A DNA stretch of 64,000 bases, from NCBI RefSeq assembly GCF_002214605.1, contig NZ_CP015193.1, positions 1,220,978 through 1,284,977 of the forward strand, in the 5' to 3' direction. Under the pieces are notes generated by a model. The model was given only the letters and a program-made list of their open reading frames with translations. It was not told where the DNA came from and did not search any database. Shown here one piece after another: positions 4,847 through 10,737 of the stretch; position 1 is the stretch's first letter; each line of letters starts with the position of its first letter. The position numbers were made by a program, and so were the translations under genes. This DNA comes from Thermococcus chitonophagus (GTDB lineage Archaea; Methanobacteriota_B; Thermococci; Thermococcales; Thermococcaceae).

Positions 4847-4884
4847 GTTTAAACCAATATCTTAACGCTTAAAAATTTAACTTA

Positions 4885-6903
4885 CTAAGAGCCTTTAATT
4901 TCTAGGTACACCCTATTTCCGCCAAAGACTCCAGGAGCGCTGAAGTTGTAGTACTGATTAAGCGTAACTTCACACGTAAACCCCGGAACTACATATGCTT
5001 CAAGTTTAATATAGCCTATGATCGTTGTTGAAGACGCAGATGTTTGAAGATATGTTGTTGTGTCATTGAGAGTAACTCCACCCTCTATTAATATTTCAGA
5101 TGTTCTCTCACTTGTATTTTCTATCCATGCTCTAAATTTGAACCATTCAAATCCACTACAGTTAGTTGATACTAGCTTTAGCCATAAGGATACGGATTGA
5201 GCGGGTTCGCTCCAAATGTCCAAGGATATTAGCTCACTTTTAAATGCATATACATCTCCTCCAATGACGGTGTTATCTGGGGGATTCCAAAGAGTTACCG
5301 TATTCCCGTATTGGTCTGCTATTTTTATATACACAGTGCCTCCGAGACTTGTACCGTTTACTATGAATGTACAATCCTTAGGATTGCCTGTAGGACAGGA
5401 TATTATCGCAGGAAGAGATATTGGAACTTTGGCAACTCCCGAAGAATCAACAGTGGCAGAAGACACATTATATTGAGTGGTCCCTACCTCTACCAAAATT
5501 GAGACGCTCCAATTTGGAGGAAGATTAGTAAAGTATACGTACTCAGGGCTTTTGTTTACAGTTATTATAAGGTTGTCAAAACTGACATTTAGTGTACCTG
5601 AAAGGTAGTAAGAGCCAATGGCGGCGTATGTAGGGGATATAACATTGTCATAAACTGGTCCGACTATCAATGTTCCATTAACCTTTAGGCTATGATCGCC
5701 TAAAGAATAGTTTCCCAGCATGCTATACCAATTTCCAGTAGAAATATTGTAGTAAGTCGAATTTAGTGTTGTCCATGTCCCATTATACCTTCTTATTTCC
5801 CCTCCAGAGACAACACTCGCAGAGCCCCCATAAAGGGTCCCATTTACTGACACTCCAGTTGCAAGAGCCGCATAATAAGCACTAGATCCTCCGCTCTGGG
5901 GGGCAAAATTAAGCTCTCTTGAAGGAGATGCCGAAGTATTGTATATGTATATCTCACTGTTATCAGTACCATATATAATGCTTGAGCCTGCCCAATCTAG
6001 CTGAGTCCATCCTGCAGGTGTTGAATTCACGTGAATTGTAAGATTTGAGACTATATTCGTGAGATCAACTGTAAAACTAGCATTTACATCCATATTAGTG
6101 GCTACGACATTACCATTGACCTTAACACTAATGACATAAATATCCGTGAATGATAATGTCCCGTCATAGTTATTTATCCATAAAGCAAAATATCCCGTCC
6201 CTGTAGAGCCGTCATGGTAATCTGATATATCAAATTCGACAACATCTCCGGGGGATACAGAATACAGAGTAACTCCATTGGACGTTATAGTACCAGCCCC
6301 CGTTGCCGTGACAATAATAGTTCCATAAACTTCAGAGTATCTACCATCAATGTTAAGAGTAAAATTATCATAAAGGGCACTACCGTTTATATTTCTATAA
6401 ATTCCATAGGCATAAAGACCATCGAAGGTACTATTTAACAGCACAACATCAGAATAGCCGTATCCATCTAAAATACTCGAAACCACCCCAATAAATATTG
6501 GACTCCCCAGAATCTGTTTTGGAACATAAGCTATGCATTCACCACTCCCCGTTGGTGAAGAAGTTTGGGTGATATATACAAACTTCCCTGTTGAGTTATA
6601 CTGCCACGCGCACGTAACATTTATGAGAGCTCCAGAAACGAAAGGATCACTATCAAAGGTATCCGCAAAAACAGCAGATCTTTCTACTCTTTGGAATGTA
6701 GAGTTTGCATAGATTATAGCTGTTGTATTGTAATCTCTTAAGTCCACTTCAGTTTGAGTAGTATTCTGACCAGAGAGCCACAGCACAGGAGTATCAACAG
6801 ATATCGTGACATATAAGATACGCTCAGTGAATACGGTTGCCATAACAAATGAAATTAAGAGGATTATCAGTATAAACCCCCTTATTTTATCCATTCTGTT
6901 CAC
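4885..6903 (-). CDS. Large secreted/surface-anchored Asn- and Thr-rich protein
   Basis: A 672-residue protein with one N-terminal hydrophobic segment (about residues 8-26) and no other membrane helix, so it is either secreted or anchored by its N-terminus outside the cell. The body is beta-rich with very many Asn-X-Ser/Thr sequons, as in glycosylated archaeal surface proteins. Two stretches (about residues 150-270 and 330-450) look like concanavalin/LamG-type jelly-roll domains. Six cysteines lie in the last third and N-terminal part, possibly in disulfides. Its start overlaps the upstream gene by 17 bp, so it is co-translated as the last gene of the 9178-to-4885 operon. I infer an adhesin or filament-associated component; no homologue is named with confidence. 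Confidence 0.75.
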   Translation of the reverse strand: MNRMDKIRGFILIILLISFVMATVFTERILYVTISVDTPVLWLSGQNTTQTEVDLRDYNTTAIIYANSTFQRVERSAVFADTFDSDPFVSGALINVTCAWQYNSTGKFVYITQTSSPTGSGECIAYVPKQILGSPIFIGVVSSILDGYGYSDVVLLNSTFDGLYAYGIYRNINGSALYDNFTLNIDGRYSEVYGTIIVTATGAGTITSNGVTLYSVSPGDVVEFDISDYHDGSTGTGYFALWINNYDGTLSFTDIYVISVKVNGNVVATNMDVNASFTVDLTNIVSNLTIHVNSTPAGWTQLDWAGSSIIYGTDNSEIYIYNTSASPSRELNFAPQSGGSSAYYAALATGVSVNGTLYGGSASVVSGGEIRRYNGTWTTLNSTYYNISTGNWYSMLGNYSLGDHSLKVNGTLIVGPVYDNVISPTYAAIGSYYLSGTLNVSFDNLIITVNKSPEYVYFTNLPPNWSVSILVEVGTTQYNVSSATVDSSGVAKVPISLPAIISCPTGNPKDCTFIVNGTSLGGTVYIKIADQYGNTVTLWNPPDNTVIGGDVYAFKSELISLDIWSEPAQSVSLWLKLVSTNCSGFEWFKFRAWIENTSERTSEILIEGGVTLNDTTTYLQTSASSTTIIGYIKLEAYVVPGFTCEVTLNQYYNFSAPGVFGGNRVYLEIKGS

Positions 6904-7480
6904 CCCATATCCTGTAATAATCCCCTAATAAATAGCCAAATAGAATCATCAGACTCAAGAAAAATATCCAGTATATAAACCTAAATTTTGAAAGGAGTGT
7001 ATACATAAAAGTGTATGTAATGACAGGTTCATTGAAATACAAGACTCCTCCACTTCCAGAAACTTTCAATTGAGGAAGTAAAACAGGCAATATATCATCA
7101 ACTGTCAGTCTTATGAGGGACATTAAAATCGAAAACATTAAAAGATTAGCAAGCAAAGCGAGGATTAAATATTTATCTAAGTTTCGGATCCAGTACAAAG
7201 TTAAAAAGACGAACGTTAGTATTATGTTGCCAAGCACAAGAACTGATAAAAAAGAGGTAGCGTCAAGTGCCTTAAACTCAACAGAAGTTCCAAAGTATGA
7301 GAGCTTGGATGATATCATTGAAACCATCCCGGAGACTGCATACCCTTCAAATCGGACTATGGGGAAGAACAGAGAAACTAGAGATAAACCTGATGTAATG
7401 CCAATATTAATAATTATCACACTCTTTAGATCTAATCTCCTCATTTTACCTTTACCCCCTTTCCCCTTTTCAAACCCCAT
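6887..7480 (-). CDS. Membrane protein of the surface operon
   Basis: A 197-residue protein with about five hydrophobic segments (roughly residues 17-37, 60-90, 98-120, 160-185) separated by an extracellular loop of about 35 residues. It has no recognised motif. The start overlaps the preceding gene by 40 bp and its end overlaps the following gene by 17 bp, so it is translated as part of one transcript with the candidate filament subunit at 8534 and the surface protein at 4885. I infer an assembly or anchoring role from position only. The alternative is an unrelated transporter-like membrane protein captured in the operon. Confidence 0.7.
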   Translation of the reverse strand: MGFEKGKGGKGKMRRLDLKSVIIINIGITSGLSLVSLFFPIVRFEGYAVSGMVSMISSKLSYFGTSVEFKALDATSFLSVLVLGNIILTFVFLTLYWIRNLDKYLILALLANLLMFSILMSLIRLTVDDILPVLLPQLKVSGSGGVLYFNEPVITYTFMYTLLSKFRFIYWIFFLSLMILFGYLLGDYYRIWGEQNG

Positions 7481-8526
7481 AGAACATAATTGATTCTTAT
7501 AAAATCAGCATTGTTACACTTTGTACCATTTGAAGGATATAGCTGTGTTGAAGAAAATGCTGGCAGAATAACACGTTTGCTACAGATAAGTTTTGTTGAG
7601 ATATCGTTAGTTTTTATGAATTCCACATAAACGGGTATCGGAATTGGATTTTGATTTGTCAAAATTATCGTTCCATTGATATTTCTAAGAGCTAAATCTT
7701 CAAGCACTACACTTACTGGGAACTTCAATTTTAAATTACCATGGTTCAATTTCATGTCACATCTAACGAGAAATGATAGAGTCCCTTTAGTAATCAAAGT
7801 GGAAGATGTTTTGTTAATGCGCTCTTCACTCTCCTTATACACTTCTAAAAATATGTCAGAAGGCAGCTTTATGAAGACCTTGCTTCCATTGACCCACGAA
7901 GTAACGTTCTTGTATTCCCAAACATCGCAACTTACACTTTCAATGTTCATTTTGAGCTTTGAGTTGGTAATATAGACGTCAAATACAAGGAGGCTTTGGT
8001 TGTATATTATCTTATACCCACCGAATTCAGGAGTGGGAGGTTCGTATTTGAGCTCCCATTGAGGCACATAAAAAGCACCAAGGATGCCAAGACTCAGAGT
8101 AGTGTACACTATAATCATAGACCCTACACTAGGAAACTCCCTTATAACGATGACAAATAAAAGGATTAGCAAGATACCCAATACCCACATCGGAAAATCA
8201 GCCACAAGAACGTATTTTATATTGCCCTTTCTAATATTTACCTCTTGGTTAGCTCCAAGCGAATGCAGTACTAAAGAATCTCCCAAATTCGTAATAACTT
8301 TGCCGGAAATACATGCAGTATGAAAGAGGTCCATACAAGCCAGGACGGTATTTCCAGCCGATACATTCCTCAAGTATGTGGCTTCGCCAATACCCAGCCT
8401 ATACTCAGGAGCATCAGAGACTATTATTAAGGCTATTGGGAAGCTTATAAGCTTGCCCATAAGGGTAAATACAAGAAAACCGAAAATAAGAAAAAGTAAC
8501 AGAGATCGCTTATTGGCTATAACCAC
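7441..8526 (-). CDS. Membrane protein with possible degenerate signal-peptidase-like region
   Basis: A 361-residue protein: an N-terminal hydrophobic helix (about 7-35), a 70-residue exposed segment, two adjacent helices (about 108-152), then a 210-residue extracellular beta-rich domain. The segment IIVSDAPEYRLGIGE after the first helix lines up by eye with the S-x-S-M-x-P-x-L-x-x-G-D box of archaeal signal peptidase I, but the catalytic serine position reads Ala and the Met-Glu-Pro core is lost; the later GD and N-I-K/G-K strands also fit loosely. That resemblance is weak and is an inference. It starts 7 bp after the filament-like gene and overlaps the next gene by 40 bp. If real, it would be a non-catalytic relative of the SipW-type peptidases that accompany TasA/camelysin genes. 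Confidence 0.65.
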   Translation of the reverse strand: MVIANKRSLLLFLIFGFLVFTLMGKLISFPIALIIVSDAPEYRLGIGEATYLRNVSAGNTVLACMDLFHTACISGKVITNLGDSLVLHSLGANQEVNIRKGNIKYVLVADFPMWVLGILLILLFVIVIREFPSVGSMIIVYTTLSLGILGAFYVPQWELKYEPPTPEFGGYKIIYNQSLLVFDVYITNSKLKMNIESVSCDVWEYKNVTSWVNGSKVFIKLPSDIFLEVYKESEERINKTSSTLITKGTLSFLVRCDMKLNHGNLKLKFPVSVVLEDLALRNINGTIILTNQNPIPIPVYVEFIKTNDISTKLICSKRVILPAFSSTQLYPSNGTKCNNADFIRINYVLWGLKRGKGVKVK

Positions 8527-8533
8527 TTATTCA

Positions 8534-9178
8534 TCACCTTGGTTGTTCAGTTGATTGCTGTGATACGTAGAATGCTAGTTTGAAGGAGTCAGTTGCAGTT
8601 GCAGAGTACTCTAGGTTGATATCAATTTGCCAAGCTGTCCCATTATTCATTGTTATGGGGGTTGTACCATAGATTATGCTCCCAGTCTTTACATCAATCT
8701 TCGCTATGAGTGTGCCATCAGAAGCATTGTAAATCATTACATATCCTGAGATCGCTGAAGTTGAACCCAGGGTAGATACCACTTTTGGCCAAACATAAAC
8801 AGTCTGCCCTCCAAGGTTTCCAAATCCAACAACATCCTTTATATACCAAGTTCCAACTGTTATCGGAACTGTTATCGTTACCGAATCATAAAGTGTATCT
8901 CCACCAGCAGTAGTACATACTGCACTACCTTTAGTAACTGAAATTGTGTTAGTCCCATAAGTCTGGGCATTTGCGTTTGTTCCTGCAGAGGGTAGATTGG
9001 GGGCATCACCAGCTGTGAAAAATCCCACACAAGATACCCCCGACGTTGAAGTTCCAACGTTTATCGTTGTGGTCATTCCTCTATAAACGAATACTGCTGC
9101 ACTGACAAGTGCTATTACTGAAACAAATGTAAATATAATGACAACATATACCTTTTTCTTTAACTCATGTTTGGACAT
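8534..9178 (-). CDS. Candidate TasA/AbpA-like filament subunit
   Basis: A 214-residue protein with Lys-rich start, one hydrophobic segment (residues 9-32) ending in a possible type I signal peptidase site, then about 180 residues of beta-strands rich in Thr, Ser, Gly and Ala with three cysteines (in VSCVG and AVCTTAGG). The architecture resembles the archaeal bundling-pilus subunits and bacterial TasA/camelysin proteins, whose mature N-terminal strand completes the neighbouring subunit. This is an architectural match, not a sequence-level proof. GGGGTGG lies 8 bases upstream of the ATG. It is the first gene of a four-gene operon, as expected for the most abundant product. Alternative: another short secreted protein. 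Confidence 0.65.
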   Translation of the reverse strand: MSKHELKKKVYVVIIFTFVSVIALVSAAVFVYRGMTTTINVGTSTSGVSCVGFFTAGDAPNLPSAGTNANAQTYGTNTISVTKGSAVCTTAGGDTLYDSVTITVPITVGTWYIKDVVGFGNLGGQTVYVWPKVVSTLGSTSAISGYVMIYNASDGTLIAKIDVKTGSIIYGTTPITMNNGTAWQIDINLEYSATATDSFKLAFYVSQQSTEQPR

Positions 9179-9501
9179 GTTAATACCACCCCATCAATGT
9201 GAGTATTATCCAAATATTTGCTATACCTGCTACATATCCTGCAATATCAATAATATTAAGGCTGAACATTATATAAGGATTATGAACGAAAGATTGAATT
9301 CTAATCAATATTTTATACAGGAGATTACATAGACATTTATAGACCACCTTGATCTAAAACACCATATCAAGGAATTGCTTTATATAACATAACATATAGT
9401 CACTACTTCATCTTAAAAAATTTGCAAAATGTAGGTATATGAAAACCCCTCATAAAATCTAAAAACTAGTCCGAGAGTAGAACAATTGGCAAATTCGAAA
9501 T
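9179..9501. promoter_or_regulatory. AT-rich intergenic region with promoter of the surface operon
   Basis: This 323-bp gap lies between the surface operon and the RNA methyltransferase gene, both on the minus strand. On the minus strand CTTATATAATG near 9262-9273 fits a TATA box for the gene starting at 9178 with a leader of about 60 bases. A second symmetric box, TTTATATAA, lies at 9379-9387. No open frame here looks coding, and no tRNA or guide RNA pattern was found. Confidence 0.5.
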
Positions 9502-10737
9502 TTAGCTTTTAAGAAGTTTTATTACGGCCTCAACGTGTGGTGTATGCGGGAACATGTCAACTAGCATAACCTCTCTAATTTTGTATGCTCTAGCAAGATA
9601 ATTTTGATAATCAAGAACGAACTTCTTAGGATTGCAAGATACATAAATTAGTATTTCAGGACCCTCTCTTACTATTTTCTCTGCAAAATATCCAAGACCT
9701 TTCCGAGGTGGATCAACTATTATGGTATCATAACCAGACAAATTTTCATTCTCTGCATTTTGAACCTTAAACTCCACTTCAAGTGAGTTAAATTCAGCGC
9801 TCTTTCTTGCCGCAGAAACTGAAAACTCATTAATCTCAACTCCCCTAACTTTAAAACCCTCACTCGCTAAGTACAGAGAGAAAGTTCCTATGCCGGAGTA
9901 CAAGTCTAGAACTTTCTCTCCCTCAACATAGTCCCTAACCACCTTTAGAAGGTGTGACAGGGCATAGCTATTAGTCTGGAAGAAGGAAGAGGGATGAATA
10001 AAATAGTATATCCCCTCAATAAGCTCCTTGATGAACTCCTCACCATGAATACGGATCGGAACTCCCCTGGGGTCATCTCTCTTGTCCCTTTTAACGCTCC
10101 AATATATTGAGTCTACGAAGTCAAATGCCTCTACAAGGATTTTCTTTACCCTTTCGGTTGGCTCAAGGTGAGCTACCACATTGACCATTACCTCTCCAGT
10201 GAACTTCATCTCTCTTATCTGAACGTAATGCACTTCCCCTTCTTTCCAGTTCCACGGCCTAAGCTTGGATTCTCTGAGGAACTCCTTTATCGCCTCCACA
10301 TAAATAGGAAAGTCCTTGGAGAAGACGGGGCACTCCCTTAGGGGAACGACGGTCTTCGGCCTCGCGAACTCCTTCATGCCAACCCCGTTAACGGTAACTA
10401 TAAGGTTCGTGATATTCCTGAAGCCGTATATCCTGGGGGAAGGCTTTATCTCCGCGTTGATTCCAGTTATTCTCTCGAAGAGCTCAGCTTTGAGCCTTAG
10501 TTGCTCCCTATATTTCAACCCCTGCCACAGGCAACCACCGCACCTTCCAAAGTGCATGCATTTGGGTCTTCCCCTAAGAGAAGAAGATTTAAGAAGTGTA
10601 AACTCTCCAATTTCTTTTCCGAACCTTCTTCTAGTTTTCACAACTTCCACTACGTCCCCAGGATACGCAAATGGCAACAGTATACCTTCAAGCATGCCAA
10701 GACCATCCTCACTAACATCCCTAACTTCGCCCCTCAT
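9502..10737 (-). CDS. TrmA/RumA-family RNA (uracil-5-)-methyltransferase
   Basis: SAM-dependent enzyme that makes 5-methyluridine in tRNA or rRNA; Pyrococcus has two such paralogues and I cannot say which this is. From the chosen start (MRGEVRDVSEDG, 10737) it has 411 residues: a TRAM RNA-binding domain (1-55), a [4Fe-4S] cluster site CMHFGRCGGC (about 60-69) with a fourth cysteine in RECPVF, and a Rossmann methyltransferase domain with LDLYSGIGTFS, DPPRKGL, the catalytic cysteine in YVSCNP and the base in PHVEAV. A start at 10803 would add a 22-residue extension without homology to the family as I remember it. It lies 14 or more bases after dph6 on the same strand. Confidence 0.9.
   Translation of the reverse strand: MRGEVRDVSEDGLGMLEGILLPFAYPGDVVEVVKTRRRFGKEIGEFTLLKSSSLRGRPKCMHFGRCGGCLWQGLKYREQLRLKAELFERITGINAEIKPSPRIYGFRNITNLIVTVNGVGMKEFARPKTVVPLRECPVFSKDFPIYVEAIKEFLRESKLRPWNWKEGEVHYVQIREMKFTGEVMVNVVAHLEPTERVKKILVEAFDFVDSIYWSVKRDKRDDPRGVPIRIHGEEFIKELIEGIYYFIHPSSFFQTNSYALSHLLKVVRDYVEGEKVLDLYSGIGTFSLYLASEGFKVRGVEINEFSVSAARKSAEFNSLEVEFKVQNAENENLSGYDTIIVDPPRKGLGYFAEKIVREGPEILIYVSCNPKKFVLDYQNYLARAYKIREVMLVDMFPHTPHVEAVIKLLKS

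Follow-up and report, generated by a model that had tools for sequence, protein, structure and literature searches.

A horizontally acquired locus of Thermococcus chitonophagus that probably encodes a thread-type donor-strand filament

Described systems closest to the locus

The threads of Sulfolobus acidocaldarius are donor-strand filaments built from Saci_0406 (PDB 7pnb, 8rzl; PMC9715654), a protein with a signal peptide, an N-terminal tail and a β-sandwich head. Thread subunits carry two marks, an isopeptide Asp residue after the cleavage site and a YYY motif, and neither a chaperone nor an usher was assigned to thread assembly (PMC9715654). A second donor-strand filament, the bundling pilus of Pyrobaculum calidifontis, is formed by AbpA (7ueg). 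In the TasA-SipW-TapA system of Bacillus subtilis, a secreted β-rich subunit is encoded beside a signal-peptidase homologue.

A locus to be compared with these systems lies in a 64-kb window of the T. chitonophagus genome (the whole stretch of DNA that was analysed). Its four genes, termed SUB, SIP, MEM and SURF, are best read as one operon, acquired by horizontal transfer, for a surface filament of the thread type, and it is probable that this filament is built by donor-strand complementation. The first-pass annotation had likened the locus to TasA/AbpA loci; the donor-strand type is retained here, but among solved structures the thread subunit Saci_0406 is the nearest relative, not TasA or AbpA. 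The proposal of a donor-strand filament operon finds its support in the fold of SUB, which matches threads, AbpA and FimA, and from this fold we infer filament formation.

Gene layout and composition

All four genes are located on the complementary strand. SUB (8534..9178, 214 aa), a putative thread-type donor-strand pilin, is followed by SIP (7441..8526, 361 aa), a homologue of S26 signal peptidases that has lost the catalytic Ser/His/Asp residues, by MEM (6887..7480, 197 aa), a polytopic membrane protein with four TM helices, and by SURF (4885..6903, 672 aa), a large surface protein rich in glycosylation sites. SUB and SIP are separated by 7 bp, while SIP and MEM overlap by 40 bp and MEM and SURF by 17 bp; coordinates and lengths agree with the initial description of the four reading frames. 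The non-coding stretch upstream of SUB (9179..9501), with a G+C content of 0.294, is part of the insertion described below and presumably holds the SUB operon promoter, as judged by eye. Inspection by eye also revealed a Shine-Dalgarno-like GGGGTGG immediately 5' of the SUB start.

The locus had been noted as more AT-rich and Asn-rich than its flanks. The first part is confirmed by a G+C content of 0.387 for the four-gene stretch versus 0.447 for the remainder of the window, and by GC3 values of 0.30-0.37 versus 0.45-0.59 in neighbouring genes; the lowest G+C in the whole 64 kb is found in the 4.3-kb windows that cover the four genes. Asn enrichment applies to SURF (7.3%) and SIP (6.6%), but not to SUB and MEM.

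Searches of Pfam and NCBIfam returned no meaningful family match for any of the four proteins. A type IV pilus or archaellum is not indicated, as no family match to an assembly ATPase, a platform protein or a class III signal peptide was obtained with the four proteins, and the cassette is flanked by genes for an MFS transporter and a methyltransferase.

Insertion into the T. chitonophagus genome

The inserted segment of approximately 4.63 kb (4876..9508) separates the MFS transporter gene from the gene for an RNA-methyltransferase-like protein. In five congeners the two flanking genes are adjacent, constituting an empty site. Homology to three such sites (L181/L182/L183) stops at position 4875 and restarts at 9509; in the empty site the two homologous stretches overlap by 7 bp. 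The methyltransferase-like gene was not destroyed by the insertion, which replaced only its last codons, changing the terminal VIKLFKR of the relatives to VIKLLKS. Neither a tRNA nor a telling direct or long repeat was found at the insertion, none of the insert's ORFs encodes an integrase, and the viral, phage and plasmid collections searched contained no relatives.

Relatives of both SUB and SIP are present in only one of the 93 other genomes of the host's family (G019). Together with the empty site in five congeners, this distribution directly supports horizontal acquisition of the cassette, as the first-pass annotation had suggested from composition. The closest SUB, sharing 44% sequence identity, is encoded in a metagenome-assembled genome (MAG) of the Desulfurococcales, although the tree does not single out a donor. 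In a tree test, a common origin of the window's copy and the G019 copy was neither shown nor rejected (p 0.22). The copy in the window, transferred recently and into a site known in its empty state, brings the system into the host's family. This family includes genetically tractable species.

A conserved cassette in Thermoproteota

SUB, SIP, MEM and SURF are orthologous to the members of a conserved and apparently unnamed cassette of Thermoproteota, which consists of a subunit, a signal peptidase extended by an ectodomain, a 4-TM protein and a large surface protein. A SUB profile of 24 sequences, applied to 115 genomes of the host's phylum, recovered the same two genomes, i.e., the window's and G019. 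A scan of approximately 85,000 species, which is sensitive to close relatives only, added a single SUB, that of the Desulfurococcales MAG. Within the order of this MAG, the SUB profile matches in 19 of 197 genomes and the wider-family profile in 68 of 197. The long peptidase form is present in about 35 copies in a phylum sample of 398 genomes; the 164 genomes counted in that sample include those with ordinary signal peptidases.

The genes of the cassette occur in two orders: SUB, SIP, MEM, SURF, as in the window and, for example, in L039, L040, L042, L046, L047, L048, L050 and L052, or SUB, SURF, SIP, MEM, as in G019. The first-pass annotation knew of no exactly matching filament gene order in Thermococcales; the window's own order does occur in Thermoproteota, and G019, of the host's family, has the cassette in the other order. 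Neither the cassette nor its group of inactive peptidases was found described in the searchable open literature, although the work on AbpA may describe related neighbourhoods.

Several cassettes show additional features. Upstream in some of them (L008:631-1158, L039:3752-4318 and L041:2163-2693) there is another SUB-like gene, shorter than SUB (176-189 aa), whose product may be a minor subunit or a cap; no such gene is present in the window. Between the closely related cassettes L039, L013 and L042, dS is 0.55-1.04 for SUB versus 0.14-0.15 for SIP, as if the SUB gene had been swapped or had diversified on its own. In L047, a cassette with an intact fused peptidase is directly preceded by a short, independent S26-type ORF (L047:4081-4566) whose HSMEPT motif is intact.

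SUB is a relative of thread subunits

An AlphaFold2 model of SUB, built on the 24-sequence alignment (pLDDT 85.9), comprises a signal/TM helix (residues ~3-25), a tail (~27-46) and a β-sandwich head (~50-214). The tail, with pLDDT values mostly below 50, is the sole low-confidence stretch past the helix in the monomer model, as expected of an unfilled donor strand. Structure prediction, which the first-pass annotation had proposed as a check, returned a β-sandwich head behind a floppy N-terminal tail.

When the model was compared with the PDB using Foldseek, the top match was the S. acidocaldarius thread 7pnb (E 6.6e-6), the second was Pyrobaculum AbpA (7ueg, E 4.5e-4), and several FimA entries followed. 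All of these best matches are subunits of donor-strand filaments. With TM-scores of 0.53/0.61 for the thread and 0.43/0.50 for AbpA, the structural agreement is moderate. At the sequence level, the profile of the wider SUB family (A7) matches the thread chain 7pnb over its length (E 1.4e-6). Profile comparison connects A7 to the profile of the window's SUB family (A3) at 99.4% and the thread relatives (A11) to A3 at 95.7%; the sequence kinship between Saci_0406 and SUB is thus indirect. Sequence searches of the PDB with SUB alone or with the narrow profile A3 produced chance matches only and did not find the thread. The comparison with AbpA and TasA that had also been advised gave a divided answer: AbpA is matched by fold but not by sequence, from either A3 or A7, and SUB matches neither PF12389 nor the TasA model, with TasA also absent from the top fold matches.

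Models and profiles together make the reading of SUB as a putative donor-strand filament protein well supported, and place threads nearer to SUB than TasA. By these comparisons SUB would be related to the published thread family without strictly belonging to it, and it stands outside the TasA family. Both thread marks are absent, as the window reads SAAVFVYRGM. In their place, SUB probably has a disulphide between Cys50 and Cys88, as suggested by the paired occurrence of these residues, which are both present in 21 of the 24 family members and both absent in the other three.

The locus differs from thread loci in containing a signal-peptidase homologue. Thread loci also encode two membrane proteins close to the subunit, one 1-TM and one 4-TM, for which kinship to SIP and MEM is not demonstrable. 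One thread-like locus (L139:2954-6545) has the window's order of SUB, 1-TM, 4-TM and large tailed protein, its second gene being devoid of a peptidase domain. That thread loci might represent this cassette after deletion of the peptidase domain is set aside as speculation, since the 1-TM protein is unrelated to SIP (hhalign 0.7%; E 5 or worse) and the 4-TM protein is only weakly similar to MEM (28%; E 0.54).

SIP is a signal-peptidase homologue that lost its active site

The locus had initially been described as containing no recognisable signal peptidase. This does not hold, as SIP is a degenerate S26 homologue: a profile from 22 catalytically intact members finds it with E 3.6e-28 over its full length, and with E 1.5e-8 when only the first 160 residues are used. 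Its N-terminal half is homologous to archaeal signal peptidase I and SEC11. The homologue in G019 has matches to archaeal signal peptidase I (1.2e-9) and to SipW (8e-4), and within the family TIGR02228 is matched by 6 of 11 members and Pfam S26 by 20 of 29; the family profile also finds SEC11A. SIP differs from these enzymes by about 200 extra C-terminal residues with predicted Ig-like domains, and by the loss of the active site, the columns of which contain Ser/His/Asp in intact members and gap/Gly/Gly in SIP. In the AlphaFold2 model (pLDDT 86.9), the S26 part is followed by two TM helices and a β-rich, Ig-like extracellular region (~166-359).

Among 29 homologues, 22 are intact and seven inactive, the latter from the window, G019 and five Thermoproteota. 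The G019 protein has lost His and retained Ser and Asp. In the full-alignment tree the seven inactive proteins form one group (support 88/71) that needs one change, while the C-terminal tree needs two and does not reject a single inactive clade (p 0.26); a single loss of peptidase activity is therefore not settled. As the inactive form is common to the loci of six other genomes, the loss is older than the insertion in T. chitonophagus. Close inactive copies show dN/dS values of 0.26-0.40, indicating that SIP is still under purifying selection, and this makes a non-catalytic role likely.

Such a role could be linked to the ectodomain, which matches the pilus chaperones PapD, FimC and CupB2 in the PDB at about 1e-4, but also matches generic Ig/FN3 proteins, with TM-scores all below 0.3 (0.13-0.18 by query length, 0.22-0.27 by target length). 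The pilus-chaperone-like reading of the modelled ectodomain is accordingly a lead and no identification. More specifically, SIP may be a non-catalytic, membrane-held assembly factor, its Ig-like ectodomain the missing chaperone or platform of archaeal donor-strand pili and the cassette the version of the assembly system that has been sought for threads. This extension is tentative, and we hold it to be rather less probable than its opposite. If it were true, a processing enzyme would have become a pilus chaperone.

SURF and MEM

SURF contains 27 N-X-S/T sequons versus 9.9 expected, a number reached by 0 of 1000 shuffled sequences, which bears out its earlier description as rich in glycosylation sites. 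Within its N-terminal 80 residues, the helix and tail are matched by the wider SUB profile (E 4.1e-7). The same N-terminal match is present in 18 of 24 SURF proteins and in 0 of 1200 shuffles; among 293 other ORFs used as a control, the matches are restricted to a SUB that is truncated and to one ORF, matched by the other profile, that is itself among the SURF candidates. Several SURF proteins also contain a C-terminal SUB-like head, and DUF2341 is found in three relatives.

Orthologues of MEM occupy the same cassette (alignment A5, n=11). A MEM-like multi-TM stretch is fused into the SURF tail in L100:3499-5778, L101:7425-9599 and L102:4804-5823; in L102 the fused frame is limited to MEM and the tail, and the remainder of SURF lies in the next ORF. 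These fusions tie SURF to the membrane side and make an anchor or basal cap more plausible than a distal tip, and SURF is most likely a membrane-side anchor or cap subunit.

A possible assembly pathway and its alternatives

Steps of export and assembly can be proposed on this basis. After export through Sec, SUB would lose its signal peptide to the general signal peptidase I of the cell; the same genome encodes a canonical enzyme of this type elsewhere (E 3.5e-44), which could process SUB. The freed tail (~27-46) would then serve as the strand that fills the groove in the β-sandwich of the next subunit, resulting in an outward-growing chain, so that the system would function in the manner of a thread or an AbpA pilus. 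SURF, which has the same tail, would act as a special subunit near the membrane, most likely as anchor or cap. SIP would be a former dedicated signal peptidase that no longer cuts, and SIP and MEM could form a membrane platform on which the Ig-like ectodomain of SIP holds subunits before they are joined.

The cassette offers specific candidates for archaeal donor-strand assembly, namely the fused signal peptidase, its 4-TM partner and the tailed, anchor-like protein. In the group with dead peptidases, cleavage is separated from assembly, which makes the role of the SIP remainder directly testable.

Alternatively, SUB and SURF could form a surface coat, a patch or an S-layer-associated complex, in which the shared N-terminal segment would be an uncleaved membrane anchor or stalk, as allowed by the loss of the dedicated peptidase. 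The inactive SIP of this locus, the glycosylation-site richness that SURF shares with S-layer proteins and the MEM-SURF fusions, which hold SURF at the membrane, are consistent with such a coat. However, cassettes with an intact peptidase carry the same N-terminal segment, a general signal peptidase I is available in the genome, the fold matches of SUB are subunits of donor-strand filaments, and the wider SUB family takes in a proven thread. A coat is therefore considered unlikely, and a donor-strand filament remains the preferred reading.

It is very improbable that the locus is a decaying acquired operon, in which the peptidase was lost first and which is on its way out without making a product. 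The lost active site and the patchy occurrence of the insertion, which is single and confined to one genome of the genus, would fit, but the four ORFs are tightly coupled and none is disrupted, the C-terminal part of SIP still matches its family (2.9e-19), and the inactive form is shared with the loci of six other genomes at the dN/dS values given above.

A TasA/SipW/TapA-type biofilm fibre proper, suggested by the secreted β-rich subunit adjoining a signal-peptidase homologue and by the weak match of intact SIP relatives to the SipW model, is just as improbable, since SUB lies outside the TasA family by sequence and fold, SIP has an ectodomain and no active site, a TapA homologue was not recognised, and genuine TasA/DUF1102-type genes are present elsewhere in the same genome.

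Other filament-like genes in the same genome

A second, separate filament-like locus is found at L164:5432-8889 (G000 ~1,911,400-1,914,900). It encodes two DUF1102 proteins, which weakly match the NCBIfam family 'fimbrial protein TafA'. Its other products are a DUF5305 protein and a signal peptidase in which the SESMYPT motif is intact; a similar locus is present in G019 (L166). The genome's one PF12389 (TasA/M73) gene is located at L001:1393-2082 (G000:1759351-1759629), with no obvious peptidase partner beside it.
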